Shown here piece after piece: positions 6,571-35,069 of a stretch of 39,526 bases of DNA (position 1 is its first letter; each line of letters starts with the position of its first letter). The stretch is from positions 1-39,526 of the forward strand of contig VXLT01000256.1 of the NCBI GenBank assembly GCA_009841475.1, read 5' to 3'. Position numbers and translations under genes: made by a program. Under the pieces are notes generated by a model that did no database searches, was not told the DNA's origin, and worked only from the letters and a program-made list of their open reading frames with translations. This DNA is from Gemmatimonadota bacterium (lineage in GTDB: Bacteria; Gemmatimonadota; Gemmatimonadetes; Longimicrobiales; Gaopeijiaceae).

Positions 6571-6582
6571 GTTGGGAAGGTA

Positions 6583-6647
6583 GTTGTCCGTGGATGAATC
6601 CGCGCCAGCGCCAAAGATCGGCGTCGCGCCGCGCCGGCAAGGCGAAA
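6583..6647 (-). repeat. Dispersed repeat (type L), copy 1, immediately upstream of the Hsp70-like gene
   Basis: Shares GTCCGTGGATGAATCCGC and (after an imperfect middle) GGCAAGGCG with 21827..21890. Confidence 0.6.
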
Positions 6648-6734
6648 CCCGGTCTCTTCGGGTCGCGTAACTGAATACGAACCCGCCTTCAATGTGCATG
6701 GGCGGGCCAGCCGATTTCCAGGGAGCAACACGAC

Positions 6735-8033
6735 ATGAAACGTCACGGGCATCTCGTCGCAGCCGCCGTTGGTACGGTACTCGCCGCCGTCTCGTCGCAG
6801 GCGCAGGCCCAGGACAGGCCGCTGACCCCCGATTTCCCCGAGGTCTACCGCGTCGGCGGGCTGGCGGCGGAGGACTGGGCCCAGTTCACCAGCCCCGGGG
6901 CGATGGGCTTCGATGGATCGGGCAACCTGTACATCCTCGACGAGGCGGCCTTTCAAGTGATCGTCCTCGACACGAGCGGCGAGTTGGTGAGGACGGTGGG
7001 GCGCAAGGGGGAGGGACCCGGAGAGTTCCAGCGGCCCGGCGACCTGGTGGTCTGGCGCGACGGGACCTTCGCCGTTCCCGACGCCGGCCACAATGCGTTC
7101 CAGATCTTCGGCACGGACGGCGCGCTTGAGCACTTCGTCAGGATGAGCGCCGAGCAGTCGCCTTTCGCGATGGACCCGGCGGGTCTTTCCCTGAGACCCG
7201 GCCCGCGGACAGGCGAAGTGTACCGCCAGGGCCAACCCGATGTTCTTGGACAGGTGTTCGGTGTTCTGGGGCCGCTGTTGGGCGGGGAGGTGAGCACCTC
7301 GGGAGTCGATCACCGCGGGCTCGAGCGACTGGAACTCGGGGGAGAAGTGGTGGTTGCGGAGCCGGTCGTTGAGGCCTGGCAACTACCCCGCGAGAAGAGC
7401 ACCGGGGAACTCACCCTGAACGACCTCGCGAACGAGTCCCGCGCCACGGATGCGATCGTCGGAATGATGACCGACGCCACGATGTACTTTGAGCCCGACC
7501 TGCACTGGGATGCTCTGCCCGATGGCTCGATCGCCTTCTCCGACTCCTCGGCCTATCAGGTCAAGCTTGTCGCGGCGGACGGTTCGCCGAGCGGCATGCT
7601 GCGGCGGCCGCACGAGCCCGAACCGGTCACCGGGCAAATCCGATCCCGCATGATCGAGCGGGCACTTCGTGACTTCGAGGGCCAGCTCGATGGCACGGAC
7701 GAGGAGGACCTGGCCCGCGCGCCCAACCTGCCCGACGCATTCCGCGAGGGATTGGAGAGCCGCGAATTCTTCCACGAGGTGCCGGTCGTTCGTCAGGTGC
7801 GGGCCGGCTGGAGCGGCACCCTCTGGGTCCAGCGGCGCGGTGACGAGCCCTGGGATGACGACGGCCCCATCGATGTCTTCGGCGCGGATCGCGAGTACGT
7901 GGGTACTTTCCCCGCTGGCGCCACGGAGATCCCGCCCGCCTTCGGACCCGACGGTCTGGTGGCCTTCTGGGAACTGGACGAACTCGACGTTCCGAGCATC
8001 GTCGTGAAGAGGTTGCCCGAGGCGCTGAGGTAG
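6735..8033 (+). CDS. Secreted 6-bladed beta-propeller protein
   Basis: Signal peptide [25 protein letters not shown]; blade motifs [39 protein letters not shown]. Confidence 0.8.
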
Positions 8034-8142
8034 CGCCACACTCAGGGCCGGAGCACCCGGTCCGGGCCCGGGTCGAGGAGTCGCCTCGGCGGGCGAACCG
8101 GCCGACGGAACGGGCGGCTCCCGTCAAGGAGGACCACCGGCG

Positions 8143-8877
8143 ATGGGTGACGACAACCACGATCGTGCGGCTTCGCGCCGCGACTCAAACAACAGCGGGC
8201 CCGGGATTCCGGCCGGGTTGCTTGTGGCGCTGATAGTCGCGGTTCTGGCGCTCTTCGGCATCGGTACCCGCTACCACCTCTCCGGAGACGTCAACTTCGT
8301 TCATTGTCTGTTCAGCGTGTTCTTCTCGCTGAACCTGCTGATCTGCTATTGGGAGGCGTGCCTCTTCTTCCGCCACGACTACATCGAGGCGCGCGCCGGG
8401 TATTGGCGCAGTCGACACCGGGAAACCGGCCGCACACCAGCCGTCGAATTCCTTGCCACCAGGGTTCCGCTGCGCCGGATTCTGTCCCCCAGGGTATGGG
8501 CGGACGCCTGGGCGACGTACTCGATGATCGACGCGTCGTATACCGACCGCCGTACTCTCGGCTTCACCGTCGACATCGGCAACGGTTTCGTCACGCCCAT
8601 CCCGACACTGATCCTGTACGCGGCGTATACCCTCGGCTTCCTCCCGGCCATCGCTGCCGGGATCATCGGGGCCATGCTGTTCTGGCAGTGGGTCTACGTG
8701 TCTTCGCTGTACTGGGTCAGTTTCTTCGTGGCGGGGCGCCAGGTGTACATTACCCGGGGTGAGCTGTACACCTACGTCATTGCCCCGAACGCGATCTGGA
8801 TCCTGATACCGCTGCTGGGACTGTACGTGTCAGTGCGGCTGATTCTGGAGGGAAACTACGGGATTCTGGGGTTCTGA
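8143..8877 (+). CDS. Polytopic membrane protein, unknown function (244 aa)
   Basis: Several hydrophobic segments (GLLVALIVAVLALFGIG, FVHCLFSVFFSLNLLICYW, AIAAGIIGAMLFWQWVYVSSLYWVSFF, NAIWILIPLLGLYVSVRLIL); co-oriented after the beta-propeller gene. Confidence 0.7.
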   Translation: MGDDNHDRAASRRDSNNSGPGIPAGLLVALIVAVLALFGIGTRYHLSGDVNFVHCLFSVFFSLNLLICYWEACLFFRHDYIEARAGYWRSRHRETGRTPAVEFLATRVPLRRILSPRVWADAWATYSMIDASYTDRRTLGFTVDIGNGFVTPIPTLILYAAYTLGFLPAIAAGIIGAMLFWQWVYVSSLYWVSFFVAGRQVYITRGELYTYVIAPNAIWILIPLLGLYVSVRLILEGNYGILGF

Positions 8878-8998
8878 ACCGCCACCAAGTGTTTGCTGCC
8901 GTCAACTGGATGGGCTACCTTGGTCGTCAACCTCGCGCCCCCGCGGCTTGGCGATTCAGCCCTCGCTTGTCCTTTATCGAACTTGAAGGGTCGTGCTC

Positions 8999-11422
8999 AT
9001 GCATTCAAAATGTCAAGAGAACATTACTAAATGTCATGTTTTCTTTACATTGATCGCTTCGCTCACCACCATCGCCCCGCCCCTGTACGCGCAGGACCCT
9101 CCCCCTCCGGATCCCGACAGCCTCGTAGTGCTGGAATCCATCGTGGTCACCGCTAGGAACCGGGCGGAAGCCCTGCAGGATGTCCCCATCGCCATGTCGG
9201 CGCTTTCGGGCAGGGAGCTCCGGCTTCAGCAGGTCGAAGCGACTGATCAGCTCTCCTACGCGACTCCAAACCTCAGCTTCAATTCATCCGGAGCGTTCGT
9301 CGGCGCCAAGTCGGCATCGCAAGTCTTCATTCGGGGCGTGGGACAGACCGACTACATTCCTACGACCGACCCGGGAGTCGCTGTCTACCTGGACGGCATC
9401 TACATGGCTCGGTCGGTCGGCCCGCTCATGCATCTTCTTGACATTGCACGCGTCGAGGTGCTGCGCGGGCCTCAGGGCACGCTCTTCGGACGAAACGCGA
9501 TGGGGGGTGCGGTGTCCGTGTACTCGAGACGGCCCGGCGAGGAGGCGCGCGGCAGTATCCGCCAGCGGCTCGGCATCAACGGTATGATTTACACGACCGC
9601 CGCGGGGAGTGGCCGGATCACGGAGGGTCTGTACGGAGGCGCTGCGATTTCCTACCGCCACCGGGACGGCCACGTCACCCGCGTCCACGATGGACTCGAC
9701 ATGGGCGACGACAACGCGCAGGCGGCCCGGGGATCCCTCGTGTGGCGGCCCTCGGACGACATTGAGCTGTTTGTCACGGCGGACTACTCCCGCCTCCGGG
9801 AAAACGGAGCGCCAACCGTCTCCGGGGGCGTCAACGACCGTCAGGCCTTCGCTACCTTCGGCAATGCCCTCCTGCCGGAATGCGAGGCGGTCAGGATAAA
9901 CCCCAACTTTCCCCGCGCAGGTCCGCCGACGTTCCCGCCCCCAGGGACCGCTACCGGCGGCGGCGCAGGCTGCTATGGGCCGGACAGCTTTGCGGGCGAA
10001 TACGAATCGGAGGGCACGTTTCCCGCCTTCGAAGACCTCGACTCCTGGGGAAGCAGCGCCGAGCTGTCCTGGTCGCTGGGAGACTGGGGGACGCTGACGT
10101 CGCTCACCGGTTACCGCGGGTTCAGCCTGAGGACCTCGCGCGACGCGGACAACACCCCGGCCAACATGGTGAGCAACCAGCAGGACTGGGACCACGAGCA
10201 GTTCACCCAGGAACTGCAAATCGGCGGACTGGCCGCAGGACGGCGACTACACTGGCAGACCGGCCTCTACCTGTTCCGTGAATCCGGATACGAAGTCGGC
10301 CACGTGCTCATTCCCGTCGGAGCGTCGATAATCGGACGCGACTACGATAACCGGTCGGTGGCGGGGTTCGGCCAGGTTACAGCCGATGTGACGGACCGGG
10401 TGTCGCTGACTGCTGGCGGGCGGTACACCCTGGACCGGAAGGGCCTGAACCCCGACATGTACGCCGTTGGCGACGCCTCGCAGAGCAGGGGCAGCATCTT
10501 CGGTCCCACTTGGCCGTTGCTTGAAGGGATATTCAGCTCGCCAGGGGGTCCGATGCGCCCGGGAGACCGGATGCTTCCGCGCAGGGATTTCACCGAGAAC
10601 TTCAGTTCGCTCACGGTAACGGCAACGGCGGCGTACCATTTCACGCCCGCTACGATGGGCTACGCCGGATACTCCGAAGGGTTCAAGAGCGGCGGGTTCA
10701 ACGGGCGCTTTCCGGCACCGCCGCCGGGCCACGAACCGAATTCCCCGACCGCGGCCCCCGACACCTATGAGCCGGAGGCGGTTTCCAGCTACGAGTTGGG
10801 ATTCAAGTCGATTCTGGCCCAGGGCAGACTGCTGTTCAACGTGGCGCTGTTCCGGGCCACCTACGACGAGATGCATATCATCGTACGTGAGACGTTCATC
10901 CCGAAGACGTTCAACGGAGGGACCGCCAACATCTCCGGCGCGGAGGTGGAGACCGCATGGGTGCCCGGCGGCGGCTGGAGCCTTCGGGCGAATCTGGGTA
11001 CGGTCCGGGCCGCGTACGACGAGCTCAGCGAGAGCGTTCTGGACAATTCGACCCCGATCCTCCCCGATTACCGGCTCGCCAAGACGCCGGATCTCAACTA
11101 CTCCGTCAGTGTGTCCAAGGTGGTAGCCGCAGCACGTGGCGTGGTGCTCACGCCACGGATCAACTGGTCGTTCACGGGGTCACAGTACCACGACGCGACC
11201 AACTCGTCGCATCTGTTGCAGGACGGCTATCACCTGGCGAATGCGGCATTGCGGGCCCGGATCGGTGACGGGCGCTGGCAGGTGGAGTGGGCGGCCCGCA
11301 ACCTGATGGACGAACGCTACCTCGTAACCGGAAACTCTTCGTTCAATACGGGAGCGTCCTACGTGGAGCTGGTCTACGGGCGACCGCGGGAATGGTCCGT
11401 ATCGGTAGAATACAGTTGGTGA
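8999..11422 (+). CDS. TonB-dependent receptor
   Basis: VVLESIVVTARNRAEALQDVPIAMSALSG..., plug domain RGPQGTLFGRNAMGGAVSVYSRRP, C-terminal ...YVELVYGRPREWSVSVEYSW. ATG 8999 preceded by GAAGGG. Confidence 0.93.
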   Translation: MHSKCQENITKCHVFFTLIASLTTIAPPLYAQDPPPPDPDSLVVLESIVVTARNRAEALQDVPIAMSALSGRELRLQQVEATDQLSYATPNLSFNSSGAFVGAKSASQVFIRGVGQTDYIPTTDPGVAVYLDGIYMARSVGPLMHLLDIARVEVLRGPQGTLFGRNAMGGAVSVYSRRPGEEARGSIRQRLGINGMIYTTAAGSGRITEGLYGGAAISYRHRDGHVTRVHDGLDMGDDNAQAARGSLVWRPSDDIELFVTADYSRLRENGAPTVSGGVNDRQAFATFGNALLPECEAVRINPNFPRAGPPTFPPPGTATGGGAGCYGPDSFAGEYESEGTFPAFEDLDSWGSSAELSWSLGDWGTLTSLTGYRGFSLRTSRDADNTPANMVSNQQDWDHEQFTQELQIGGLAAGRRLHWQTGLYLFRESGYEVGHVLIPVGASIIGRDYDNRSVAGFGQVTADVTDRVSLTAGGRYTLDRKGLNPDMYAVGDASQSRGSIFGPTWPLLEGIFSSPGGPMRPGDRMLPRRDFTENFSSLTVTATAAYHFTPATMGYAGYSEGFKSGGFNGRFPAPPPGHEPNSPTAAPDTYEPEAVSSYELGFKSILAQGRLLFNVALFRATYDEMHIIVRETFIPKTFNGGTANISGAEVETAWVPGGGWSLRANLGTVRAAYDELSESVLDNSTPILPDYRLAKTPDLNYSVSVSKVVAAARGVVLTPRINWSFTGSQYHDATNSSHLLQDGYHLANAALRARIGDGRWQVEWAARNLMDERYLVTGNSSFNTGASYVELVYGRPREWSVSVEYSW
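9009..9051. repeat. 19-bp imperfect inverted repeat (16/19) with 5-nt spacer
   Basis: AATGTCAAGAGAACATTAC-TAAAT-GTCATGTTTTCTTTACATT; right-arm reverse complement AATGTAAAGAAAACATGAC. Confidence 0.8.
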
Positions 11423-11459
11423 TCGTCGCAAACCCATCATTCCGAAAAAGGAGAAAAGG

Positions 11460-11747
11460 ATGTCGGCCTACGTCGTAACGCACGTTCGTGTGCACGATGC
11501 CGATGAGTACGAGGGATTCCTGGCGGCAGCGATGCCCCTGTTCAAGAAGTGGGGCGGAGAAATCGTGGTTGGCAGCACGGAGTGCACCGCCCTGGAGGGC
11601 GAATGCCCGAGCAGGGTCGTGGTTCAACGGTTTCCCGATGCCGACTCGGCCCGGGGCTTCTACGAGAGTGAGGAACGCCGGAACCTTCGAGACGCTACGT
11701 CCGAATGCTGCACGTTCCACGCCATTCTTCTGGGGGACGACGCCTAA
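11460..11747 (+). CDS. DUF1330 family protein
   Basis: MSAYVVTHVRVHDADEYEGFLAAAMPLFKKWGGEIVVGSTECTALEGECPSRVVVQRFPDADSARGFYESEE...; strong RBS AAAAAGGAGAAAAGG upstream. Confidence 0.85.
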   Translation: MSAYVVTHVRVHDADEYEGFLAAAMPLFKKWGGEIVVGSTECTALEGECPSRVVVQRFPDADSARGFYESEERRNLRDATSECCTFHAILLGDDA

Positions 11748-11780
11748 CGGAGGCGTCCGGCGGTCCGGCCTCCATCGGGC

Positions 11781-11848
11781 GTGGGCACCGCTGTCCAGCC
11801 CGGATGCATCGCCGCTCGAATGCCGGGGGGATTTTGTCCACGGGCTGC
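11781..11848 (-). repeat. 68-bp dispersed repeat (type R), copy 1
   Basis: 63/68 identity by eye to 22006..22073; begins at the base after the DctM stop codon. Confidence 0.85.
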
Positions 11849-13159
11849 CTATCCGAACATCGCCTGAGGCAGGAAGGTGACGAGTCCGGGCACGAATGCG
11901 AGCAGCACAAGCAGTGCCAGCATCGCGAACCAGAAGGGTATGATGCCGCGAAAGATCGAACGCATCGGGATGTCCGGGGCCACGGTCTTCACCACAAAGG
12001 TGTTCAGGCCGACCGGCGGCGAGATCAGCCCCATCTCGAGGGTGATTACGAGCATGACGCCGAACCAGATCATGTCGACGCCCAATGACGTGAGAATCGG
12101 CTGAACCAGCGGGATCGTCAGAACGAGGATTGCGAATGCGTCCAGAATCGTGCCCAGTACGATGAACATGGCGAGCACCACCGCAACCACCTGGGGCCCC
12201 GACCATCCCTGCTCGCCGATCCAGGCGGCCAGGGCGAGCGGTGTTTGCGTGTAGCCCAGGAACACCTTGAAGACATAGGCGCCGATGAGGATCAGGAACA
12301 CGGTGCCACACGCCCGCAGGGTCGAGAGCAGGCACTCCGCGAAGGTCTTACGGGTCAGTGAGCGGCGCGCCAATGCTACCAGCAAGGTCAGGAACGCGCC
12401 CACGCCCGATGCCTCAAGAGCGGAGAAGACTCCGGCGTAAATGCCTCCGAGGGTCACGGCGGCCAGTCCCAGGATCCAGTAGGCCCCTGTGGGTCGGCGG
12501 CCGCGCTCCGCCAGTTCGGTGGAGGTGGTTCGATCGCCCCGGGGCGCCCTGTCGGGGCGAAGGGTTACAATGATGACGATAGTCAGGACGAAGATCGCCG
12601 TCAGCAGGATTCCGGGCAGCAATCCGGCCATGAAAAGACGGCTGATGCTCTGCTCGGTCATGATGCCGTAGAAGACCAGCCCGGCCGAAGGCGGAATGAG
12701 GATGCCGAGAGTCCCTCCCGCGGCGACGGTTCCCGCCGCGAGCGACTTGTCGTAGCTGAAGCGCCGCATCTCGGGCAACGCGACGCGGCCCATGGTCAGC
12801 GCGGTCGCCAGCGACGACCCGGAAAGCGCCGAAAAGCCCGCGCTGGCGATGACCGAAGCCGCGGCAAGCCCCCCCCTGATACGGCCCAGCCAACGGTTGG
12901 CGGCGAGGTACAGATCCCGGCTCATTCCCGAGACGACGGTCAGATTCCCCATCAACATGAAGAGGGGGAGGATGATGAGCGTGTACCGCGATGACACGGT
13001 GAAGGTTTCGCCCGCGATGACGGCAAGAACGGCCTGAGGCCGGATCAGCGCGATCCCCGCCGCCCCCGCGATGAGCATGGAAAGCCCCACCGACACCCGC
13101 ATCAGGATAAGCGCGAGCAGGAGAGCGATACCGAGCAGTGCAACCACGGACCCGTCCAT
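11849..13159 (-). CDS. TRAP transporter large permease (DctM-like), cassette 1
   Basis: MDGSVVALLGIALLLALILMRVSVGLSMLIAGAAGIALIRP...LPLFMLMGNLTVVSGMSRDLY...SGSSLATALTMGRVALPEM...LISPPVGLNTFVVK. Confidence 0.92.
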   Translation of the reverse strand: MDGSVVALLGIALLLALILMRVSVGLSMLIAGAAGIALIRPQAVLAVIAGETFTVSSRYTLIILPLFMLMGNLTVVSGMSRDLYLAANRWLGRIRGGLAAASVIASAGFSALSGSSLATALTMGRVALPEMRRFSYDKSLAAGTVAAGGTLGILIPPSAGLVFYGIMTEQSISRLFMAGLLPGILLTAIFVLTIVIIVTLRPDRAPRGDRTTSTELAERGRRPTGAYWILGLAAVTLGGIYAGVFSALEASGVGAFLTLLVALARRSLTRKTFAECLLSTLRACGTVFLILIGAYVFKVFLGYTQTPLALAAWIGEQGWSGPQVVAVVLAMFIVLGTILDAFAILVLTIPLVQPILTSLGVDMIWFGVMLVITLEMGLISPPVGLNTFVVKTVAPDIPMRSIFRGIIPFWFAMLALLVLLAFVPGLVTFLPQAMFG

Positions 13160-13701
13160 CAGTTGCCCGCACCTCGCCGTTCGTCCGCGTCGGGCGCGGC
13201 GCGCCTGCGGATCAATTGGTACACAAGCAGCAGTGAGCATATCGCCGTGCCCACACCCAGCGCGTAGTAGAACGGCGTGTGCACGATGCCGATCGTTCCC
13301 GTGACCTCGGCGCACTCGATACCGCAGCCGCCCCTGGCGAGGAGGGCGTACGCCGCGACCCCGCTGGCAATCGCCCCCACAAGCCTTGCGAGCACGTCGG
13401 TCACGCGATTGAAGACACCGCCGACCACGCGTCCGATAAGGTCGACCGACACATGCGCCTGGCTCTGGGCCGCGCAGACCACAGCGGCCGCAACGAGCAC
13501 CGTGAGCGCCATGGAAGCGACATCCTCCACGCCCTGCAGGGGGGCCCGGAAGAGATGGCGCGCCACAACCTCGGCCACGGTCAGACCCACGAGCAGCAAC
13601 AGCGCCCCGCCCCCGGCGACGGCGCAGGCGGCGATCAGACCCCTTTGCAGCGCCCGTCGGACGCGACTGCGATCCCCGGGCTTCAGCCGGAAGGCCTTCA
13701 T
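13159..13701 (-). CDS. TRAP transporter small permease (DctQ-like), cassette 1
   Basis: LTVAEVVARHLFRAPLQGVEDVASMALTVLVAAAVVCAAQSQAHVSVDLI...; adjacent to DctM and DctP genes. Confidence 0.88.
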   Translation of the reverse strand: MKAFRLKPGDRSRVRRALQRGLIAACAVAGGGALLLLVGLTVAEVVARHLFRAPLQGVEDVASMALTVLVAAAVVCAAQSQAHVSVDLIGRVVGGVFNRVTDVLARLVGAIASGVAAYALLARGGCGIECAEVTGTIGIVHTPFYYALGVGTAICSLLLVYQLIRRRAAPDADERRGAGN

Positions 13702-14759
13702 CCTCCGAGCAACTCCGCCAGGATTTCAGCCACCGTCGCGTCTCCGATCCTGCGGGAGAGTTCCGCCTCGTAGACTTCCGCGACCGCCTCCAGGAGTCGC
13801 GCCTCTTCGCTCTCGGAGAGATCGATGATCTCCACACCCGATTCACGGGCAACCCGCAGACCGCGGGCAGTGGCGAGTTCGAAGACCTGACCCCCGGACT
13901 CCGACAGCCAGACGCCCGATGCCTCGTCCACCCATCTCCGTTCCTGCGGCGCGAGGAGGTCGTAGGCGCTTCGATTCATGAGCAGCGCAACCGGTGTCGC
14001 AGAGAGAGGCATCCCGATGGTGAGAAACGAGGCCACCTCGTTCAACCGAAACGCGGGAATGCCCCCCGCAGGCATCACGACTCCGTCGATTACACCTGTC
14101 TGGAGACTCTGGTAGACTTCCGTGACCGGCTGCTGCACGGGCGTCGCACCCAGAGCCGCTACGAAGGGCATTTCGACCCCGGACGGCACGCGCAACTTGA
14201 GCCCGCGAATATCCTCCAGTCTGCGCACCGGCCTGTCGCGGGTGAGCAACACCGGGGGACCGGGGGACCACATCGCCAGGATTCTCGCGTTGTAGTCGAC
14301 CTGGAGGACCGTACGGGCCCGCTGCAGGGCGGCTGTACAGTCGGTTGGGCTGTCGCACACGCCCGGGAAGGTGCTCAACGCCGTCCTGGGGAACGCAACG
14401 GCTGTGTAGCCCGGTACCACCAGGGCTATATCCGCCACCCCCTCGAGCAACATCGGGTAATACCTCCGGGCATCGCTGGCGAGGGCACCCCCCATGTACT
14501 CCGCCGCCGTCAGCCTGCCGCCGGACACTTCCGCCAACCGTTGGGTGAAGGGAACGATGACTCCGGACCTGGGGGGAGCGAGCGGGGGCAGCGGGTGCGC
14601 CAGGATCAGAGACTTGCTCCCCCCCTCGCTGCCATCGCCCCGCGGGACGGGGGTGCAGGAAGCGAGCGCGAGGAGCAGGACAGGAGTCACCGCCGCGATA
14701 TTCAAAGGTGGCAGTCCCGGCATCTCAACGCCTCGAACCCTCCGGCTGACCGGCGGCAA
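13698..14759 (-). CDS. TRAP transporter substrate-binding lipoprotein (DctP-like), cassette 1
   Basis: Lipobox LLLALASC; LILAHPLPPL...LKLRVPSGVEMPFVAALGATPVQQPVTEVYQSLQTGVIDGVVMP... Confidence 0.9.
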   Translation of the reverse strand: MPPVSRRVRGVEMPGLPPLNIAAVTPVLLLALASCTPVPRGDGSEGGSKSLILAHPLPPLAPPRSGVIVPFTQRLAEVSGGRLTAAEYMGGALASDARRYYPMLLEGVADIALVVPGYTAVAFPRTALSTFPGVCDSPTDCTAALQRARTVLQVDYNARILAMWSPGPPVLLTRDRPVRRLEDIRGLKLRVPSGVEMPFVAALGATPVQQPVTEVYQSLQTGVIDGVVMPAGGIPAFRLNEVASFLTIGMPLSATPVALLMNRSAYDLLAPQERRWVDEASGVWLSESGGQVFELATARGLRVARESGVEIIDLSESEEARLLEAVAEVYEAELSRRIGDATVAEILAELLGG

Positions 14760-16488
14760 CCTTCAGGGTGACGATGTCGACATTGTGGTACTGCTGGTGC
14801 CGGACCGACGAAGCCAGGTGCCGGAGCAGCCGCAACGAGATTGCCTGCTCCTCCTGTTCGCTCCCGGTCTCATCTCCGAGCCAGGCCAGCCGATCCTGAA
14901 GGTTCAGTTCCTCCTGTCCCGCCGTGGCAGCCTTGAATCGCATGACGGCGTGCCCTCTCTCCCGCGACGCCGTGAGCAGGAGTGCCCGCCCGCTCCGCTC
15001 CCGGTCGTCCTCTTGCCATCCCTCCGTACCGTGTGGCTCCACCAGCATGAGCAGGGTTTCCTCGGCGGCGGCCTCCATCCGTCCGATCAATGCCTCCAGA
15101 CCGGCGCCTTGGGCAAACCTGCGAATGAACTCGTTGATCCGAGGCAGTTCGCGTACGTCGACTCTTCCCCTGAACCGCGCGACGCGTGGCATGGTCAGGC
15201 CCACAAGCAGGATGGCGAGCATGCCGCCCGTGGTCATCCCGTTGTTCAGGAGTCCGCCCGCGAAGTTCGCAAAGAAGTCCGGGAAGACCACGTCGAACTC
15301 GATGGCGATACCTGTCCAGACCGCGAGTCCCGCGATGAGCCCGGACCGGGGATTGTTGCGAATCCCGGCAACGACCTCGCGCATGCCGACCACGAAGAGT
15401 GTGCACAGGGTGACGATGATGACGGCCGCCACGACAGCGTCCGGAATCGCGATGATCACCGCCACCAGCTTGGGGAAGCAGGCCAGACCGATCAGGGCAA
15501 GCCCGGCGACAAGACCCACGCTGCGAGACGCCACTCCAGTGGTCTCGATCGTGGCGATCGGCGTGGGATGGAGCGTGTTGGGAATCCCACCCGCCAGGCT
15601 TGCAATAATGTTCCCTCCCCCCTCGGCCGCCACGGCACCCTGCACGGAGCGAAAATCCACGGCGCGGGGGCTCCGCCAGGACACGCGCTGGGTTGCCACG
15701 GCTACCCCCACCGCCTTGGTGGTCCCGACAAGAGCAATGAAGACGAAGCTCGGCAGAAGCGCCCAGAAGGGCGGGCCGAAACCAAGGTCAAGCCCCGGCG
15801 GACGTCCTTCGGGCAACCCGACCCACGCCGCGTCGGCCACGCCCCCGAATTCGTAGATGCCAAAGAACGCGGCGACGACGGACCCGCCTGCGAGCCCGGC
15901 CACAGGGGCCCACAGGCGAAGTCGGGGTGACCCCTTCAGGTGGATCCCGGCGGCCACGGCAATTGTCACGCACGCGCTCAGCGGGCCGGCCGCGGCCGGG
16001 GCGCCGGCCGGGACCTCGTTCAGCATGCCGAGCACAATCGGCATGATGGTCACCGGCAGAAGCATGATGACCGTGCCCGTGACCACGGGGGTGAAGACGC
16101 GGTGCAACAGGGCGAGGTGCCGGGACAATGCCACATGCACCATCCCCGACACGAAGACCAGCGTCGCCAGCAGCGGCGGCCCCCCTTCGGCTAGAGCCGC
16201 AACACACACGGCGATGAACGGGGCGGAGCACCCGTGGAGCATCTGGTACCCGGCGCCGAAGCGTCCCGGCTGGACCGCCTGCACTGCGGTGATGATGCCG
16301 CACGCCAGCATGCCCCCGAAGATCGCCCACAGGAGGAAGTCCCCCGAATTGGCGGCCCCGAAAACGATTGTGGGGAGAAGCACCGCGGAATGCACCGAGA
16401 GCAGGGCCAACTGCGTTCCGAGCCCGATACTGATCAGCGGGCGCAGCGAGTCGGTGGCCTGGTAGCGAAGGTTCTGGTCAGGTCTCAT
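14725..16488 (-). CDS. NCS2 (xanthine/uracil-type) permease with C-terminal ~150 aa soluble domain, cassette 1
   Basis: NCS2-like core (FTPVVTGTVIMLLPVTIMPIVLGMLNEVPAG; GIPNTLHPTPIATIETTGVASRSVG) then RVDVRELPRINEFIRRFAQGAGLEALIGRMEAAAEETLLMLVE...AISLRLLRHLASSVRHQQYHNVDIVTLKV. Confidence 0.88.
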   Translation of the reverse strand: MRPDQNLRYQATDSLRPLISIGLGTQLALLSVHSAVLLPTIVFGAANSGDFLLWAIFGGMLACGIITAVQAVQPGRFGAGYQMLHGCSAPFIAVCVAALAEGGPPLLATLVFVSGMVHVALSRHLALLHRVFTPVVTGTVIMLLPVTIMPIVLGMLNEVPAGAPAAAGPLSACVTIAVAAGIHLKGSPRLRLWAPVAGLAGGSVVAAFFGIYEFGGVADAAWVGLPEGRPPGLDLGFGPPFWALLPSFVFIALVGTTKAVGVAVATQRVSWRSPRAVDFRSVQGAVAAEGGGNIIASLAGGIPNTLHPTPIATIETTGVASRSVGLVAGLALIGLACFPKLVAVIIAIPDAVVAAVIIVTLCTLFVVGMREVVAGIRNNPRSGLIAGLAVWTGIAIEFDVVFPDFFANFAGGLLNNGMTTGGMLAILLVGLTMPRVARFRGRVDVRELPRINEFIRRFAQGAGLEALIGRMEAAAEETLLMLVEPHGTEGWQEDDRERSGRALLLTASRERGHAVMRFKAATAGQEELNLQDRLAWLGDETGSEQEEQAISLRLLRHLASSVRHQQYHNVDIVTLKVAAGQPEGSRR

Positions 16489-28584: not shown

Positions 28585-30366
28585 ATGAAGCGTTCGCGGC
28601 GCGGCACCGGCGAGGAGCTGCGCCACGAAGTGAACGACCGGATCCCCCGGCCGCTCGCACTTGGACTCGGCCTGCAGCTCGCCGCCCTTGGCGTCAACGG
28701 GTTGGTCCTGATGCCCACGATCGTGTTTCGTGCCGGCGGCGCCGAGGAACTGGTGTTCTGGGGCGTCTTCGCGTCGGTACTGGCATGCGGCGTTGCCACG
28801 ATCCTGCAGGGCAGGAGGTTCGGGAGAATCGGAGCAGGCTACGCATTCACGCACGTGAGCTCGGCCATCTTCATCGCCGTCAGCGCGGAGGCGCTCGTGC
28901 AGGGTGGACCGGGGCTGCTCGCCACCCTGGTCGTCGCCTCCGCTGTCGCCCAGGCGGCGTTTTCGGCGCGCCTGTCACAGGTGCACCGCTACCTGACGCC
29001 CGTTGTCACCGGTACGGTGATCATGCTCCTTCCCGTCACCGTGATGCCGATTCTCTTCGACATGCTGAACGAGCTGCCGGCGGGGGCCCCTGCGTACGCC
29101 GCGCCGCTGAGCGCCGGCGTAACCGTCGCAACGATTCTCGGGGTAGCGGTCAAGGCGAGGGGAGCGTTGCGTCTCTGGGCTCCCGCCGCCGGCCTGGTCG
29201 CCGGTTCGCTGGTGGGGGCATTCTTCGGAATCTACGACTCCGGGCTGGTGGCTGAGGCCGCCTGGATCGGCGTCCCGGACGGTCGCCCCCCCGGGCTGGA
29301 CCTCGGCTTCGGACCGGCGTTCTGGGCGCTGCTCCCGGCGTTCCTGCTCGTAGCGCTGATCGGCTCCACCAAGTCGGTCGCCGTGGCGGTCGCCGCCCAG
29401 CGCGTCGCGTGGCGCCGGCCCCGCGCGGTCGACTATCGCGCGGTCCAGCGGACCGTCGCCGCTGAGGGCGCCGCGAATCTGCTGGCGGGGATGGCCGGCA
29501 CGATGCCCAACACGCCCAACGCGGGAGCCGTGGCGGCCGTCGAAGTCACCGGCGTCGCGGCGCGCAGCGTCGGAGTCGCGGCCGGGCTGGTTTTCTTCGT
29601 CCTCGCGTTGCTCCCCAAGGCGCTCGCCGCCATTTTCGCCATCCCCGCCGCAGTCGTAGCCGCCTCCATCGCCGTGGTCATGGCGACGCTCTTCACGGTC
29701 GGGATGCGGGAGGCCGTGCGGAGCATCGGGACGAACCCGCGCAACGGTCTGATCGCGGGCGTCTCATTCTGGACGGGTGTGGCGCTTGAGTTCGAGTTGA
29801 TCTTCCCTGCCTTTTTCGCGGAATTCGCGGGTGGTCTGTTGAGTAACGGGCTCACCGCGGGAGCTCTGGTGGCGCTGTTGCTGACCGCACTGACGGCACG
29901 GCGGAAGAGCCAGCTCACGGGAGTGCTGGACGTTGCCGAACTGCCCCGGATCAGGGAGTTCATCCAGTCGTTCGCCGGCCGCCACGGCCTGGAGGCGGCG
30001 GTGGGGCGGCTCGAGGCCGCGAGCGAAGAGACGTTGCTCACGCTGATACAGTCGCGCGAGACAGCCGATGAGGAGGAGGAAGCACCGGATGGCGGAAAGC
30101 GCGGGCTGCTTCTCACCGCGCACGAGGAAGACGGGGAAGCCGTGCTGGAATTCAGGGTGGGCGCGGCGGGCGCTGACGAACTCAACCTGCAGGACCGCCT
30201 GAGCTGGCTCGGGGAGCAAACCCGGGCGACCCGGGTCGAACATGAGATCTCGCTTCGGCTGCTCCGGCACCTCGCGTCGTCGGTCCGGCACCAGCAGTTT
30301 CATGACATGGACATCCTGACTCTCCGCGTCGATGCCGCTGCCGCGAGTGGGTCGCGAAGTGCGTAG
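28585..30366 (+). CDS. NCS2 (xanthine/uracil-type) permease with C-terminal ~150 aa soluble domain, cassette 2
   Basis: Paralogue of 14725..16488 throughout, including C-terminal ELPRIREFIQSFAGRHGLEAAVGRLEAASEETLLTLIQ...NLQDRLSWLGEQTRATRVEHEISLRLLRHLASSVRHQQFHDMDILTLRV. Confidence 0.88.
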   Translation: MKRSRRGTGEELRHEVNDRIPRPLALGLGLQLAALGVNGLVLMPTIVFRAGGAEELVFWGVFASVLACGVATILQGRRFGRIGAGYAFTHVSSAIFIAVSAEALVQGGPGLLATLVVASAVAQAAFSARLSQVHRYLTPVVTGTVIMLLPVTVMPILFDMLNELPAGAPAYAAPLSAGVTVATILGVAVKARGALRLWAPAAGLVAGSLVGAFFGIYDSGLVAEAAWIGVPDGRPPGLDLGFGPAFWALLPAFLLVALIGSTKSVAVAVAAQRVAWRRPRAVDYRAVQRTVAAEGAANLLAGMAGTMPNTPNAGAVAAVEVTGVAARSVGVAAGLVFFVLALLPKALAAIFAIPAAVVAASIAVVMATLFTVGMREAVRSIGTNPRNGLIAGVSFWTGVALEFELIFPAFFAEFAGGLLSNGLTAGALVALLLTALTARRKSQLTGVLDVAELPRIREFIQSFAGRHGLEAAVGRLEAASEETLLTLIQSRETADEEEEAPDGGKRGLLLTAHEEDGEAVLEFRVGAAGADELNLQDRLSWLGEQTRATRVEHEISLRLLRHLASSVRHQQFHDMDILTLRVDAAAASGSRSA

Positions 30367-31354
30367 CAGGCTGACTCTCGCACTCGCGGTCGGACTGCCG
30401 GTCGCCACCGGATGCCAGCCGGCGTCCGACGCCCGTGAACTGTCGCTGGCGCATTTCCTGCCGGCGGACCACGCCCTGAACGAGGCCGTGTTCACGCCGC
30501 TGGCTCAACAGCTCGCGGAGCTCTCGGGCGGCAAACTGACCGTCAGACAGTATCCCGCGGGCGCCCTGAACACGTCCGCGCCGGCGCAGTACTCGATTCT
30601 GCTGAGCGGCGTGGCCGATATCGCCCTTGCCGTGCCCGCCTACACCGCCGACCTCTTTCCGAAGACCGACCTGATCGCCTATCCGGGCGTCTGCAAGACC
30701 GCGATGGAATGTACCGTCGCACTGCAACGCGCCCTGTCGGTGCTGGAGGCGGAATACGAAGCGAAGGTGTTGGGGCTCTGGGGCAACGACGCCCCGGTGC
30801 TGCTCACCCGCGACAAACCGGTGCGCACGCTGGAAGACCTGCGCGGCCTCAAGATCCGCGTCTCGACCCGGAGCGCCATCCCCTTCATCGAAGCGCTCGG
30901 CGCGAGCGCGGTAATGCAGCCGGGTACGGTCGTCCACCAGAGTCTGTCCACGGGAGTCATCGACGGCGTCGCCATCTCCCCCTCGGGGATCGTGGCGTTC
31001 CAGCTTCACGAGCCGGCCGCGTACCTGACCACCTGGCTTCCCACTTCCGGGCTGCCGTTCGTTCTGCTGATGAACCAGGGTGTCTACGATGCCCTGGCTC
31101 CGGAGGAGCGGCGCTGGATCGACGAAGTCGCGGATTCGTCTCTTGCCATGGCCGGAGCCGTCGCATACGCCCGAGCTGGTGTCGAGGGTCTGCTATTGGC
31201 GGAAGGGGCGGGCGTCGAGATGATCGATCTGCCGGAGGGCGAAAAGCGCCGCTTCGAAGCGGCGATCGCGCCGGTGCGGGAAGCGGGGCTTGCACGGCGG
31301 GTGGACGACATGACCGTAGGCGAGGTCATCCGCCTGTTCGGCACGGCACGATGA
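30332..31354 (+). CDS. TRAP transporter substrate-binding lipoprotein (DctP-like), cassette 2
   Basis: LPVATGCQ (lipobox); LAHFLPADHALNEAVFTPLAQQLAELSGGKLTVRQYPAGAL...GLKIRVSTRSAIPFIEALGASAVMQPGTVVHQSLSTGVIDGVAISPSG. Confidence 0.88.
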   Translation: MPLPRVGREVRSRLTLALAVGLPVATGCQPASDARELSLAHFLPADHALNEAVFTPLAQQLAELSGGKLTVRQYPAGALNTSAPAQYSILLSGVADIALAVPAYTADLFPKTDLIAYPGVCKTAMECTVALQRALSVLEAEYEAKVLGLWGNDAPVLLTRDKPVRTLEDLRGLKIRVSTRSAIPFIEALGASAVMQPGTVVHQSLSTGVIDGVAISPSGIVAFQLHEPAAYLTTWLPTSGLPFVLLMNQGVYDALAPEERRWIDEVADSSLAMAGAVAYARAGVEGLLLAEGAGVEMIDLPEGEKRRFEAAIAPVREAGLARRVDDMTVGEVIRLFGTAR

Positions 31355-31469: not shown

Positions 31470-33119
31470 CTATTGCCCCGGCACCCGCAAGATCGGGTAC
31501 ACCTCCCCGACCCCCAGCCTGTCCGCCAGGAATCCCCAGTTCGCGAATCCGTCGTCGGATTGCGGTTCGAGCAGGCTGAAGAGCAGGCGTCCCAGAGGCT
31601 GGTCGGCGCGCGCCCACATGTCTCCGGGACCCGGCGTCACCTGCGTCGGCTCATAGCGCCCAAAGAGGGTCTGCTCGTTGCGCCCCTGGAACGGGCGCGC
31701 GGCCGTCCGCACCGAATCGATATGGAACACCTCCACATCCAGCGGCGTCGCGTCGGCCGGCTCGAGCGCGACACCGTGCGCCCCGAGCCGGGTCAGGACG
31801 TCCTCGAGCTCCGCGGGGATCAGGTAGGCCTCGGGAACGCGCTCGGTGAGCGTCGGCATGAACGTCCCGTATTCGTACATGGGCACGACGTACTGGGTAT
31901 CGGCGCGCAGGAGCAGCGGGCGCCCGGTGAGCGGGTGGGCCTCCTCGACGGTCGCCCCCATGAGGATGTCGACCCGCTCCGCCGACCGCTCGGGTCCGGC
32001 ACGCACCGCAAGCGATTCCCCCACCACCGACGCGGCATCGGCCTCGGCGACGATCCGCCGTACCTCGTCCCCGTGCTCGTGCACGTAGTCCAGGATCTCT
32101 TCGACGAAGTACAGCGTCGCAAGCACGCGCTCCTCGAAGGACGCGTAGGAATAGGCCTCGCTCAGGATCGCGATCCGGTTGCGCAGACCGATGTAGTTGT
32201 TGTTGAACCGGGGGCGGTGGTCGAAGGTGTACCAGCCGCGCTCGCCGCCGCCGCGCCCGGACGCGTTGCCGTAATAGTAGAACTCCCAGCCGTGTTTGTC
32301 CCTGACCTCGCCGGTGACGTGGGGAAGGAGGCCGCCGCGGAGGAAGTCGTCGATCGCGGCGGGGGTGTTGGGGTGGAGCGGGGGCGAGTAGGTGAGGTGG
32401 TAGGCGTGCTGCGTCCCGTTCGTCGTGTGCAGGTCGACCGCCACATGCGGATCGTAGCTGCCGAACAATCGCGCAACCGACCGGGCCTCGGACGACTCCA
32501 GCTTCATGTGATCGCGGTTGAGGTCGTAGCCCTGCGCGTTCGGCCGCTGGCCCATCCCGCCAACCGGCCCGTGCTGTCGGCCGCGGTTGGTGAGGGTCAC
32601 GCGCTCATTGCCGTCCGCGTTGTAGATCGGCGCGACCAGCAGCACCATCGACTCGCGCCATGCGCCGTGGCGGCCCGCCAGGAGGTCGCGGAGCAGCATC
32701 TGGAGCGCCTCCTTCCCGCACACCTCGCCTGCGTGGATGTTGCCCTGCAGGTAGACGACCGTCTTGCCGGAAGCGCGGACGTTTGCCGGGCTCGGGTCGC
32801 CGACATCGCCGACTACGGCCAGTGGGAGCGCACGGCCTTCGGTCGTGTAGCCGTAGGTGGTGTAGTGGACCATCGGCGACGCGGCCGCCGCGCGCTCGAG
32901 GAAGTCCACGACGTCCGCGTAGGAGCTGGTCTCGCGGTAGTCGGTGCGTTCAGCGCGGGTGAGGAAGGCGTCGTCGGGGGGAGGAGAGGGGTTGCAGGCG
33001 GTGAGGAGGACCGCGGCCGCCAGTCCGCGGGCAAGTCCCCAGGTGCACCGGGAGCGCCGGGGTGCCGGGGTGGATGCCAGGCGGCCATGCGCCGCAGTAG
33101 CAGGGTTCAGGGTTGCCAT
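31470..33119 (-). CDS. M14 family metallocarboxypeptidase (lipoprotein)
   Basis: GLAAAVLLTACNPS (lipobox); GNIHAGEVCGKEALQ (HxxE), YDLNRDHMKLES, VAVDLHTTNGTQHAYHLTYSPPLHPN. Confidence 0.88.
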   Translation of the reverse strand: MATLNPATAAHGRLASTPAPRRSRCTWGLARGLAAAVLLTACNPSPPPDDAFLTRAERTDYRETSSYADVVDFLERAAAASPMVHYTTYGYTTEGRALPLAVVGDVGDPSPANVRASGKTVVYLQGNIHAGEVCGKEALQMLLRDLLAGRHGAWRESMVLLVAPIYNADGNERVTLTNRGRQHGPVGGMGQRPNAQGYDLNRDHMKLESSEARSVARLFGSYDPHVAVDLHTTNGTQHAYHLTYSPPLHPNTPAAIDDFLRGGLLPHVTGEVRDKHGWEFYYYGNASGRGGGERGWYTFDHRPRFNNNYIGLRNRIAILSEAYSYASFEERVLATLYFVEEILDYVHEHGDEVRRIVAEADAASVVGESLAVRAGPERSAERVDILMGATVEEAHPLTGRPLLLRADTQYVVPMYEYGTFMPTLTERVPEAYLIPAELEDVLTRLGAHGVALEPADATPLDVEVFHIDSVRTAARPFQGRNEQTLFGRYEPTQVTPGPGDMWARADQPLGRLLFSLLEPQSDDGFANWGFLADRLGVGEVYPILRVPGQ

Positions 33120-33222: not shown

Positions 33223-33765
33223 GTGAGGAACATCTTCGAGAAGCACGCTGGCCGCTTCGCGCGGACCGAGTCGTACAGCGGCCGCGTGGCATCGGCGTTC
33301 GCCGTTCCGGGCGGTGTCGCGCTTGTGGTGCTGCTCGGAGTCACCGTGGCCGAGGTCTTCTGGCGGTACGTGCTCAACAATTCGCTGCTCTGGGCCGAGG
33401 ACCTCGCCACGATGGCGCTCGCCGTGGTTGTGGCCGCGGCGATCGCGTACGGCGCCCGCGAAGGTTCCCACGTCTGCGTCAACCTGATCGCACGCCTTGG
33501 GGGCCGGCGCGTGACCAGAATCACGGACGCCGCGGCCCGGCTTCTGGGCGTCGCAGCCACCGTAGCGGCCGCGTACGCGCTGTTCGTCCACGGCAGTCGC
33601 GGTGCTTCGTACGGGGCTGTCACCCCCAGCGTCTCGATCTCCCACGCCCCCTTCTACTACGTGCTCGGCGCGTCGCTCGCCTCCTACGCACTGCTGCTCG
33701 CGTCCCAACTGCTTCTCGGGTTCGCGACCTGGAACGGCGAAGACCCCAACGAGCCTGCGGACTGA
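33223..33765 (+). CDS. TRAP transporter small permease (DctQ-like), cassette 2
   Basis: VTVAEVFWRYVLNNSLLWAEDLATMALAVVVAAAIAYGAREGSHVCVNLI...; GTG start. Confidence 0.85.
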   Translation: MRNIFEKHAGRFARTESYSGRVASAFAVPGGVALVVLLGVTVAEVFWRYVLNNSLLWAEDLATMALAVVVAAAIAYGAREGSHVCVNLIARLGGRRVTRITDAAARLLGVAATVAAAYALFVHGSRGASYGAVTPSVSISHAPFYYVLGASLASYALLLASQLLLGFATWNGEDPNEPAD

Positions 33766-35069
33766 TGGACGGAAGCAGCATCGCCCTGCTCGGATTCGCC
33801 GCCCTCCTGCTGCTGCTCCTGATCCGGGTGCCCGTGGGGCTGGCGATGATGGTCGTGGGCGTGGCCGGAATCGCCGCGATCCGCCCGGAAGCGGTCGTAG
33901 CGGTACTGGCGGGAGAGGTGTTCGGGGTGGCGTCGCGGTACTCCCTCACCATCCTGCCGCTGTTCATGCTGATGGGGAACCTGGCAGTGATCTCCGGGAT
34001 GAGCCAGGACCTCTACCAGGCTGCCCACAGCTGGCTCGGCCGCGTGAGGGGCAGTCTGGCGTCCGCGTCGATCGTCGCGTGCGCCGGATTCTCCGCACTT
34101 TCCGGCTCGTCGCTGGCCGCCGCGCTGACCATGGGGCGCGTGTCGCTTCCCGAAATGCGCCGCTACAGGTACGCCGATTCGCTGGCGACGGGGGCCATCG
34201 CCGCCGGGGGAACGCTCGGATTCCTCATCCCGCCGTCGGCGGGGCTGGTCATCTACGGGATCATCACCGAAGAGAGCATCGGACGCCTGTTCATGGCCGG
34301 TGTGATCCCCGGGATTCTGCTTACGTTTCTGTTTGTGCTCGCCGTCTGGATCGTCGTGAAGCGTGACCCGGCGAAGGCTCCCCATACCCTGGCACCGGTC
34401 GTGTGGCGGGATCGTCTCGGGGCAACTGCAAGGGCGGCCTGGATCCTGGGCATCGTCGTCGTGACCATCGGTGGCATCTACGCCGGCGTCTTCTCCGCCG
34501 TTGAGGCGGCTGCCGTGGGAGCCTTGCTGACGCTGGTCGCGGCCCTGGTACGGCGCGCACTCAACCGGGATTCGGTGAACGAGGTGGTCAGGGCCACGCT
34601 GAAGGCGAGCGGCACCGCCTTTCTGGTGCTCTCCGGCGCGTTCGTATTCAAGGTCTTTCTCGGATTCACGGGGATCGCCTTCGTCGCCGCCGAATGGGTT
34701 GGCGAGCAGGGGTTTTCAGGCACTCAGGTCGTCATGCTGGTGCTGGCGATGTTCATCGTGCTCGGCACCTTCCTCGACGGCTTCGCGATGCTCGTGCTCA
34801 CCGTTCCCCTGGTTCAGCCGATTCTCGAGTCGCTGGGCGTCGACATGATCTGGTTCGGCGTGATGATCGTCATCACGCTCGAGATGGGCCTGATTTCGCC
34901 TCCGGTCGGGCTGAACATCTTCGTGGTAAAGAGTGTGGCTCCCGACGTGCCCGTCGGGACGATGTTCCGCGGCATCGTTCCCTTCTGGCTCGCGATGCTC
35001 GCGGCGCTGATCCTGATCGGGCTGCTGCCCGCCCTGGCCACGGTCCTGCCCAACGCCATGTTTGGATGA
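33765..35069 (+). CDS. TRAP transporter large permease (DctM-like), cassette 2
   Basis: MDGSSIALLGFAALLLLLLIRVPVGLAMMVVGVAGIAAIRPEAV...SGSSLAAALTMGRVSLPEM...LISPPVGLNIFVVKSVAPDVPVGTMF. Confidence 0.92.
   Translation: MDGSSIALLGFAALLLLLLIRVPVGLAMMVVGVAGIAAIRPEAVVAVLAGEVFGVASRYSLTILPLFMLMGNLAVISGMSQDLYQAAHSWLGRVRGSLASASIVACAGFSALSGSSLAAALTMGRVSLPEMRRYRYADSLATGAIAAGGTLGFLIPPSAGLVIYGIITEESIGRLFMAGVIPGILLTFLFVLAVWIVVKRDPAKAPHTLAPVVWRDRLGATARAAWILGIVVVTIGGIYAGVFSAVEAAAVGALLTLVAALVRRALNRDSVNEVVRATLKASGTAFLVLSGAFVFKVFLGFTGIAFVAAEWVGEQGFSGTQVVMLVLAMFIVLGTFLDGFAMLVLTVPLVQPILESLGVDMIWFGVMIVITLEMGLISPPVGLNIFVVKSVAPDVPVGTMFRGIVPFWLAMLAALILIGLLPALATVLPNAMFG

Follow-up and report, generated by a model that had tools for sequence, protein, structure and literature searches.

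Lysine-type NCS2 permeases with a GHKL-like tail encoded beside TRAP transporter genes in Gemmatimonadota and other bacteria

Two NCS2-TRAP cassettes in one contig

The window analysed here is a stretch of 39,526 nt that makes up one whole contig (C14, VXLT01000256.1) of the 4.18-Mb draft genome of a Gemmatimonadota bacterium (GCA_009841475.1). It carries two complete cassettes, each encoding an NCS2-fold permease fused to a C-terminal GHKL-like domain, together with the solute-binding protein DctP and the small and large membrane subunits DctQ and DctM of a tripartite ATP-independent periplasmic (TRAP) transporter. All eight genes score above the Pfam cut-offs, with E-values for cassettes 1 and 2, respectively, of 7.5e-39 and 1.6e-38 for the NCS2 genes (Xan_ur_permease, PF00860), 7.4e-34 and 2.3e-33 for dctP (PF03480), 3.9e-15 and 2.3e-19 for dctQ (PF04290), and 1.6e-88 and 1.7e-90 for dctM (PF06808). 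The features are listed below, where K-type denotes an NCS2 protein with a lysine at a binding-site position in transmembrane helix 8 (TM8).

14725..16488, minus strand: cassette 1 NCS2-fold permease with GHKL-like domain, 587 residues, K-type (PF00860; ATG at 16488; TM8 Lys)
14728..15186, minus strand: C-terminal GHKL-like (anti-sigma-factor fold) domain of the cassette 1 NCS2 protein, placed by alignment to the modelled, fold-matched cassette 2 domain
13698..14723, minus strand: cassette 1 dctP, TRAP solute-binding protein with lipobox-like ALASC (PF03480; ATG at 14723; conserved Arg)
13159..13701, minus strand: cassette 1 dctQ, small TRAP membrane subunit (PF04290; ATG at 13701; ATGA overlap with dctP)
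11849..13159, minus strand: cassette 1 dctM, large TRAP membrane subunit (PF06808; ATG at 13159; TGATG overlap with dctQ)
28585..30366, plus strand: cassette 2 NCS2-fold permease with GHKL-like domain, 593 residues, K-type (PF00860; model nearest UapA and UraA)
29371..29373, plus strand: codon of Lys263 in TM8 of the cassette 2 NCS2 protein, equivalent to UapA Glu356 and UraA Glu241 (profile alignment)
29902..30363, plus strand: C-terminal GHKL-like (anti-sigma-factor fold) domain of the cassette 2 NCS2 protein (AlphaFold model; top Foldseek matches UsfX, RsbW and SpoIIAB)
30332..31354, plus strand: cassette 2 dctP, TRAP solute-binding protein (PF03480; relatives in PDB)
31470..33119, minus strand: M14 zinc carboxypeptidase gene, 549 residues, between cassette 2 dctP and dctQ (PF00246, E = 8e-15)
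33223..33765, plus strand: cassette 2 dctQ (PF04290)
33765..35069, plus strand: cassette 2 dctM (PF06808)

In cassette 1, with the ATG codons listed as the likely starts, the dctP start codon lies 2 nt past the NCS2 stop codon, an ATGA is common to dctP and dctQ, and a TGATG is common to dctQ and dctM; by this arrangement cassette 1 is a tight predicted operon, laid out like translationally coupled genes. An earlier note on this stretch, made from the sequence alone, had described cassette 1 as touching or overlapping genes on the minus strand in the order NCS2-fusion, DctP, DctQ and DctM, which these data confirm. The same note saw in cassette 2 paralogous genes in the same order. The paralogy and the order stand (38-67% identity between the cassettes: NCS2 58%, DctP 48%, DctQ 38%, DctM 67%), and cassette 2 is interrupted by the M14 gene, which lies on the opposite strand between dctP and dctQ. 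No homologue of this gene was found inside any other examined cassette, and the insertion is specific to cassette 2. A 35-nt overlap of the NCS2 gene with dctP, reported for both cassettes, proved in cassette 1 to be an artefact of the open reading frame list, which used an upstream TTG, and holds in cassette 2 if dctP starts at ATG 30332. As a regulatory feature common to the cassettes the overlap was rejected, since it is artefactual in cassette 1 and many relatives lack it.

Since DctP, DctQ and DctM are all present and intact in both cassettes, each encodes a full TRAP set. Arg176 of DctP is invariant in 37 of 37 cassette DctP proteins, and going by the role of this residue in SiaP-type structures we take it to pair with the ligand carboxylate. 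The DctP signal regions in the window are lipoprotein-like (ALASC in cassette 1 and VATGC in cassette 2), and a lipobox-like signal is present in 20 of the 37 proteins.

The NCS2 binding site and the fused C-terminal domain

The full-length NCS2 model has the NCS2 fold, matching UapA in Foldseek with an E-value of 3e-14 and UraA with a TM-score of 0.85 by target length. The binding site was compared by aligning a profile of 61 fusion proteins with UapA and UraA. In UapA, Glu356 (TM8) and Gln408 (TM10) hold xanthine (PMC4837479), and Q85, E356, D388 and N409 are irreplaceable (PMC3405029). Throughout the clade of K-type proteins, the TM8 Glu position (UapA E356, UraA E241) is occupied by Lys (50/50 members), the TM10 Gln/Glu position (UapA Q408, UraA E290) by Thr, Gly, Ser, Asn or Pro, and the UapA N409 position mostly by Ala, Pro or Gly. 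The position of UapA D360 (TM8) holds Val, Ile, Leu or Ala, that of D388 (TM9) is Glu in 45 of the 50, and that of Q85 (the TM1 Gln) is kept wherever aligned, while a position in TM3 is His in 46 of the 50 K-type proteins and mostly Met in the other classes. The E-type paralogues retain Glu, Asp and Asp, and the TM10 Gln/Glu is gone there too. Scores against the NCBIfam models are far under cut-off, at 144-162 versus 414 for pbuX (TIGR03173) and 127-129 versus 292 for ncs2 (TIGR00801).

The description of these proteins as nucleobase-type permeases in the earlier note was therefore rejected for the K-type, as both the TM8 Glu and the TM10 Gln/Glu are replaced, and it is very likely from these positions that K-type NCS2 is not a nucleobase permease. 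Xanthine, urate and uracil are unlikely substrates because the nucleobase-contact residues of UapA and UraA are replaced, in the window copies by Lys (TM8) and Gly/Thr (TM10). Since the charge is reversed at the centre of the site, the alignment suggests an anionic ligand for K-type NCS2, and the carboxylate-type Arg in all 37 DctP proteins fits an acid that would be common to DctP and NCS2.

For the C-terminal domain, no relatives were found by sequence searches of Pfam or PDB, and matches were given by fold search alone. An AlphaFold model based on 102 sequences (pLDDT 75) returned in Foldseek, as its best 17 PDB fold matches, exclusively the anti-sigma factors UsfX, RsbW and SpoIIAB (E-values of 1e-6 to 8e-4, TM ~0.55-0.6). 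Six tail residues (R36, E42, E43, N95, L121 and H130) are invariant in the 102 sequences. A search of the same sequences for the GHKL ATP motifs found DxGxG in 6/102 and no conserved N-box Asn in the helix after E42-E43. The tail is best called a pseudo-GHKL (degenerate GHKL) domain with a predicted anti-sigma-factor fold, and a regulatory role is plausible on the strength of the model. This identity of the fused part bears on the idea, already raised in the earlier note, of a regulatory link with the TRAP system; that NCS2 and TRAP have either a substrate or a regulatory link in common may reasonably be inferred.

Linkage, co-inheritance and distribution

Sorted by their TM8 residue, 135 fusion proteins fall into K (50), E (37), R (28), Q (12) and D (8) types, and these classes follow the tree, with 6 changes across the 135 proteins and the K-type members forming a single clade (support 99-100); the classes suggest several substrate classes within the NCS2-GHKL family. 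Flanking regions were examined at about 150 loci, and a copy was counted as linked when TRAP genes lay on its own strand no more than 2.5 kb away. Of the 50 K-type copies, 39 were TRAP-linked, 4 were at contig ends and 7 were unlinked, and among the 85 copies of other types a single one was linked, with 65 unlinked with full flanks and 19 at contig ends. This sole linked non-K copy is found in an Actinomycetes metagenome-assembled genome (L205, 1075-6070), where a Q-type NCS2-GHKL gene directly follows a different DctP/DctM set, and it is possibly a second, independent NCS2-TRAP pairing. The genes are neighbours in at least five different orders, namely NCS2-P-Q-M, Q-M-NCS2-P, NCS2-Q-M-P, Q-M-P-NCS2 and, on a Pseudomonadales chromosome (L209), P-Q-M-NCS2, and the pairing occurs in three phyla (Gemmatimonadota, Acidobacteriota and Pseudomonadales). 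An evenly drawn sample of 71 genomes of the phylum contained 90 NCS2 and 79 DctM matches, and all 9 of the 9 same-strand pairs within 5 kb were K-type. Genus g5 (L087/L175) has K-type NCS2 genes in tandem, located after the genes for a TAXI solute-binding protein (PF16868, E = 2e-61) and a DctQM fusion (TIGR02123, E = 2e-184); in L087 the TAXI-type TRAP genes are at 11499-14368, NCS2 at 7656-11451 and a broken NCS2 copy at 6509-7534. Short TAXI matches, of about 30 residues, in L088 and in L087 (there between the NCS2 genes) are not interpreted here. Independent signals of linkage come from the rearranged orders of the genes, the pairing with TAXI and the distant cassette of L209. The earlier note had named rare co-occurrence elsewhere, beforehand, as what would count against a unit; co-occurrence is conserved across genomes and phyla, and it is near certain that the pairing is not due to chance.

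Subunit trees and pairwise distances were built from 37 complete cassettes, which we class as a-, b- and c-type. All four subunit trees set the a- and c-type cassettes apart from the rest (support 0.99-1.0), and all four likewise show the a/b split that separates the two window cassettes. The pairwise distances of the subunits correlate as well (r 0.89-0.95), so NCS2, DctP, DctQ and DctM diverged together as units. The joint duplication for which the earlier note had wanted such trees is in this way borne out as one history.

The source genome has 9 PF00860 matches, most of them proteins or fragments with the same C-terminal extension of about 150 residues, and only the two window copies have TRAP neighbours. 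At the level of the order, relatives were found in 38 of 159 genomes, all of one family and nearly all multi-copy, with up to 8 copies reported per genome (for example at loci L019, L020, L023, L024 and L098). A scan of 85,488 species genomes yielded relatives in metagenome-assembled genomes labelled as Gemmatimonadota, Acidobacteriota, Nitrospira, Nitrospinota, Dadabacteria, Binatia, Rhodothermales, and Alpha- and Gammaproteobacteria, with some of these NCBI taxon labels wrong or doubtful and several 'Gammaproteobacteria' records belonging to the family of the window itself; a 'Bacteroidota' locus (L159) was therefore not counted as a fourth phylum. Members of the K clade lie on Acidobacteriota contigs of up to 3.9 Mb and on the Pseudomonadales chromosome. 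Many of the metagenome-assembled genomes probably derive from marine-sponge metagenomes or symbionts, judging partly from the isolate names RHO, COS and APA, which recall Rhopaloeides, Coscinoderma and Aplysina, the sponge sources in Robbins et al. 2021 (PMC8163846); the sponge origin of the SB06, jk18 and p16 records is not confirmed.

A further neighbour of the cassettes is a receptor gene that is convergent with cassette 1:

8993..11422, plus strand: TonB-dependent receptor (PF00593, E = 6e-31; PF07715, E = 2.5e-14)

Orthologues of this receptor accompany the a-type cassettes, and a group 55-60% identical to it flanks many b-type cassettes at other positions, an a/b identity similar to that of the NCS2 proteins. 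The source genome has exactly two close copies of the receptor, the other one lying at an edge of contig C258. In L209 the gene ahead of dctP, in the same orientation, encodes an unrelated receptor. Two distant K-type NCS2 genes are each followed closely by a NIPSNAP-domain gene of opposite orientation (L209, 11839-12156; L183, 11302-11628).

Possible function and relation to known systems

We propose that each cassette is one uptake module for an organic anion, in which K-type NCS2 serves as a second carrier or a transceptor whose ligand is the TRAP acid or one related to it; we consider the chances of this proposal evenly poised, and it is likewise about even that TRAP and NCS2 handle the same or a related anion. 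The TonB-dependent receptor, where present, would bring the anion over the outer membrane, DctP, lipid-anchored or free, would bind it, and DctQM would import it with the sodium gradient. K-type NCS2 would no longer be a nucleobase:H+ symporter and, because Lys replaces the acidic residue in the core site, would bind the same or a chemically related anion, acting as a second carrier that exchanges the anion, takes it up with low affinity or lets out excess or a product. Its cytoplasmic anti-sigma-like tail would report transport state or loading to regulation, comparable to STAS on SulP/SLC26. As the family is multi-copy in assembled genomes from several phyla that we take, in part by their names, for sponge symbionts, the ligand may be a host-derived compound of the sponge symbiosis.

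Two genomes have window-type TRAP genes without NCS2 (G001, locus L127, and G033, locus L126), in a same-strand run of SulP-STAS, pyrroloquinoline quinone (PQQ) dehydrogenase, dctQ, dctM and dctP (L127, 5019-12204; L126, 6398-11618). The L126 run is decaying, with DctQ down to 23 residues and the PQQ dehydrogenase and SulP frames broken. SulP is an anion carrier that shares its membrane fold with NCS2, which makes its presence in these runs suggestive. SulP as a clean functional replacement of NCS2 was downgraded because the gene also stands alone elsewhere. A related PQQ dehydrogenase gene was observed directly downstream of a TRAP-less K-type NCS2 gene, across an assembly gap (L067, 4361-6339). 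At another locus (L129, 6623-7178, in G020), a cassette-2-type dctP remnant is found beside a D-type NCS2 gene, and G020 has no window-type dctM; we read this locus as a lost cassette.

Several observations weigh against the uptake-module proposal. K-type NCS2 occurs without TRAP at L148, L145, L172 (two copies), L192 and L088/L183, and is therefore able to work alone; decayed TRAP remnants were sought at L148 and L145 and none were found, though synteny places both at the same site as in TRAP-bearing relatives. The TRAP genes are themselves without NCS2 in the two genomes described above, SulP is also solitary in other genomes, including beside another dctP in G005-G008, and the two SulP-TRAP runs may be one event. 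Around the c-type and Acidobacteriota cassettes the TonB-dependent receptor was not found. As the K clade is monophyletic, the many loci represent few independent events, and a Fisher test overstates the significance of linkage, its p-value not being independent evidence because the K-type rows form one clade. Finally, with the ATP motifs missing, signalling by the pseudo-GHKL tail is unproven.

A tentative elaboration, which we hold to be possible though doubtful, is that K-type NCS2-GHKL is a dedicated TRAP partner, an anion-binding transceptor that would share the DctP ligand, add exchange or sensing to a one-way importer and signal via its pseudo-anti-sigma domain. If true, two carrier folds that are unrelated to each other would form one composite transporter with a common control. 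The protein might instead be a pure receptor that transports nothing, senses the TRAP substrate and controls TRAP expression or activity via its anti-sigma-like tail. This is conceivable and on the unlikely side: the residues irreplaceable for transport in UapA (E356 and N409 positions) are lost clade-wide, and the tail has the predicted fold of UsfX, RsbW and SpoIIAB and several invariant residues, but E, D, R and Q paralogues without TRAP have this tail too, so it is not specialised for controlling TRAP, no STAS or sigma gene that could be a partner was noticed next to the cassettes, and the UapA-essential Gln85 position and the NCS2 fold are retained.

It is unlikely that the two are separate permeases which handle different compounds of one nutrient source and stay adjacent solely to be co-expressed (TRAP importing an acid, for instance, and NCS2 exporting a product of its breakdown or importing a second compound). 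The solitary K-type NCS2 and TRAP genes of some genomes, and the pairing of NCS2 with the unrelated DctP and TAXI classes of TRAP, speak for such an arrangement, yet it is opposed by the strong common history, by adjacency through several rearrangements and by the fact that the charge in the binding site is reversed in just the clade linked to TRAP. An ordinary nucleobase or xanthine permease accompanied by TRAP uptake of a purine-derived acid, as the best Pfam and NCBIfam names (Xan_ur_permease, pbuX) would have it, is very improbable given the low NCBIfam scores and the replaced TM8 and TM10 residues. That the genes came together by chance, were duplicated once and then passed to a few relatives accords with most loci falling in one NCS2 clade and is virtually excluded by the gene orders, the three phyla, the second TRAP class and the uniformly K-type pairs of the phylum sample.

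A whole clade annotated as xanthine/uracil permeases probably carries or senses something else, one site in TM8 sorts the family, and with the cassettes it can be tested whether a UraA-fold carrier cooperates with a TRAP system. The component families are known; a limited search of the open-access literature found no published description of the NCS2-TRAP combination, the lysine class or the fusion of a carrier to an anti-sigma fold, all of which are apparently undescribed within that search. Compared with NCS2/NAT (SLC23) carriers such as UapA and UraA, K-type NCS2 is alike in fold, PF00860 match and TM1 Gln, and differs by the TM8 Lys, the lost TM10 Gln/Glu and Asn, the GHKL-like tail and the TRAP linkage. 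The TRAP part resembles DctP-DctQ-DctM systems in all three subunits and in the conserved DctP Arg, to which the cassettes add an NCS2-GHKL gene in the operon and, beside many copies, a TonB-dependent receptor. With the anti-sigma factors and serine kinases UsfX, RsbW and SpoIIAB (GHKL) the tail has domain order and predicted fold in common, whereas it is without recognisable ATP motifs or a Pfam match and is fused to a carrier. SulP/SLC26-STAS proteins likewise join a UraA-type fold to a cytoplasmic domain from the anti-sigma partner-switch repertoire; theirs has the SpoIIAA/STAS fold, whereas the NCS2 tail is predicted to have that of RsbW and SpoIIAB, and neither NCS2 protein of the window has a Sulfate_transp or STAS match. 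A UraA-fold carrier fused to an anti-sigma-type domain would thus be the mirror image of SulP-STAS.

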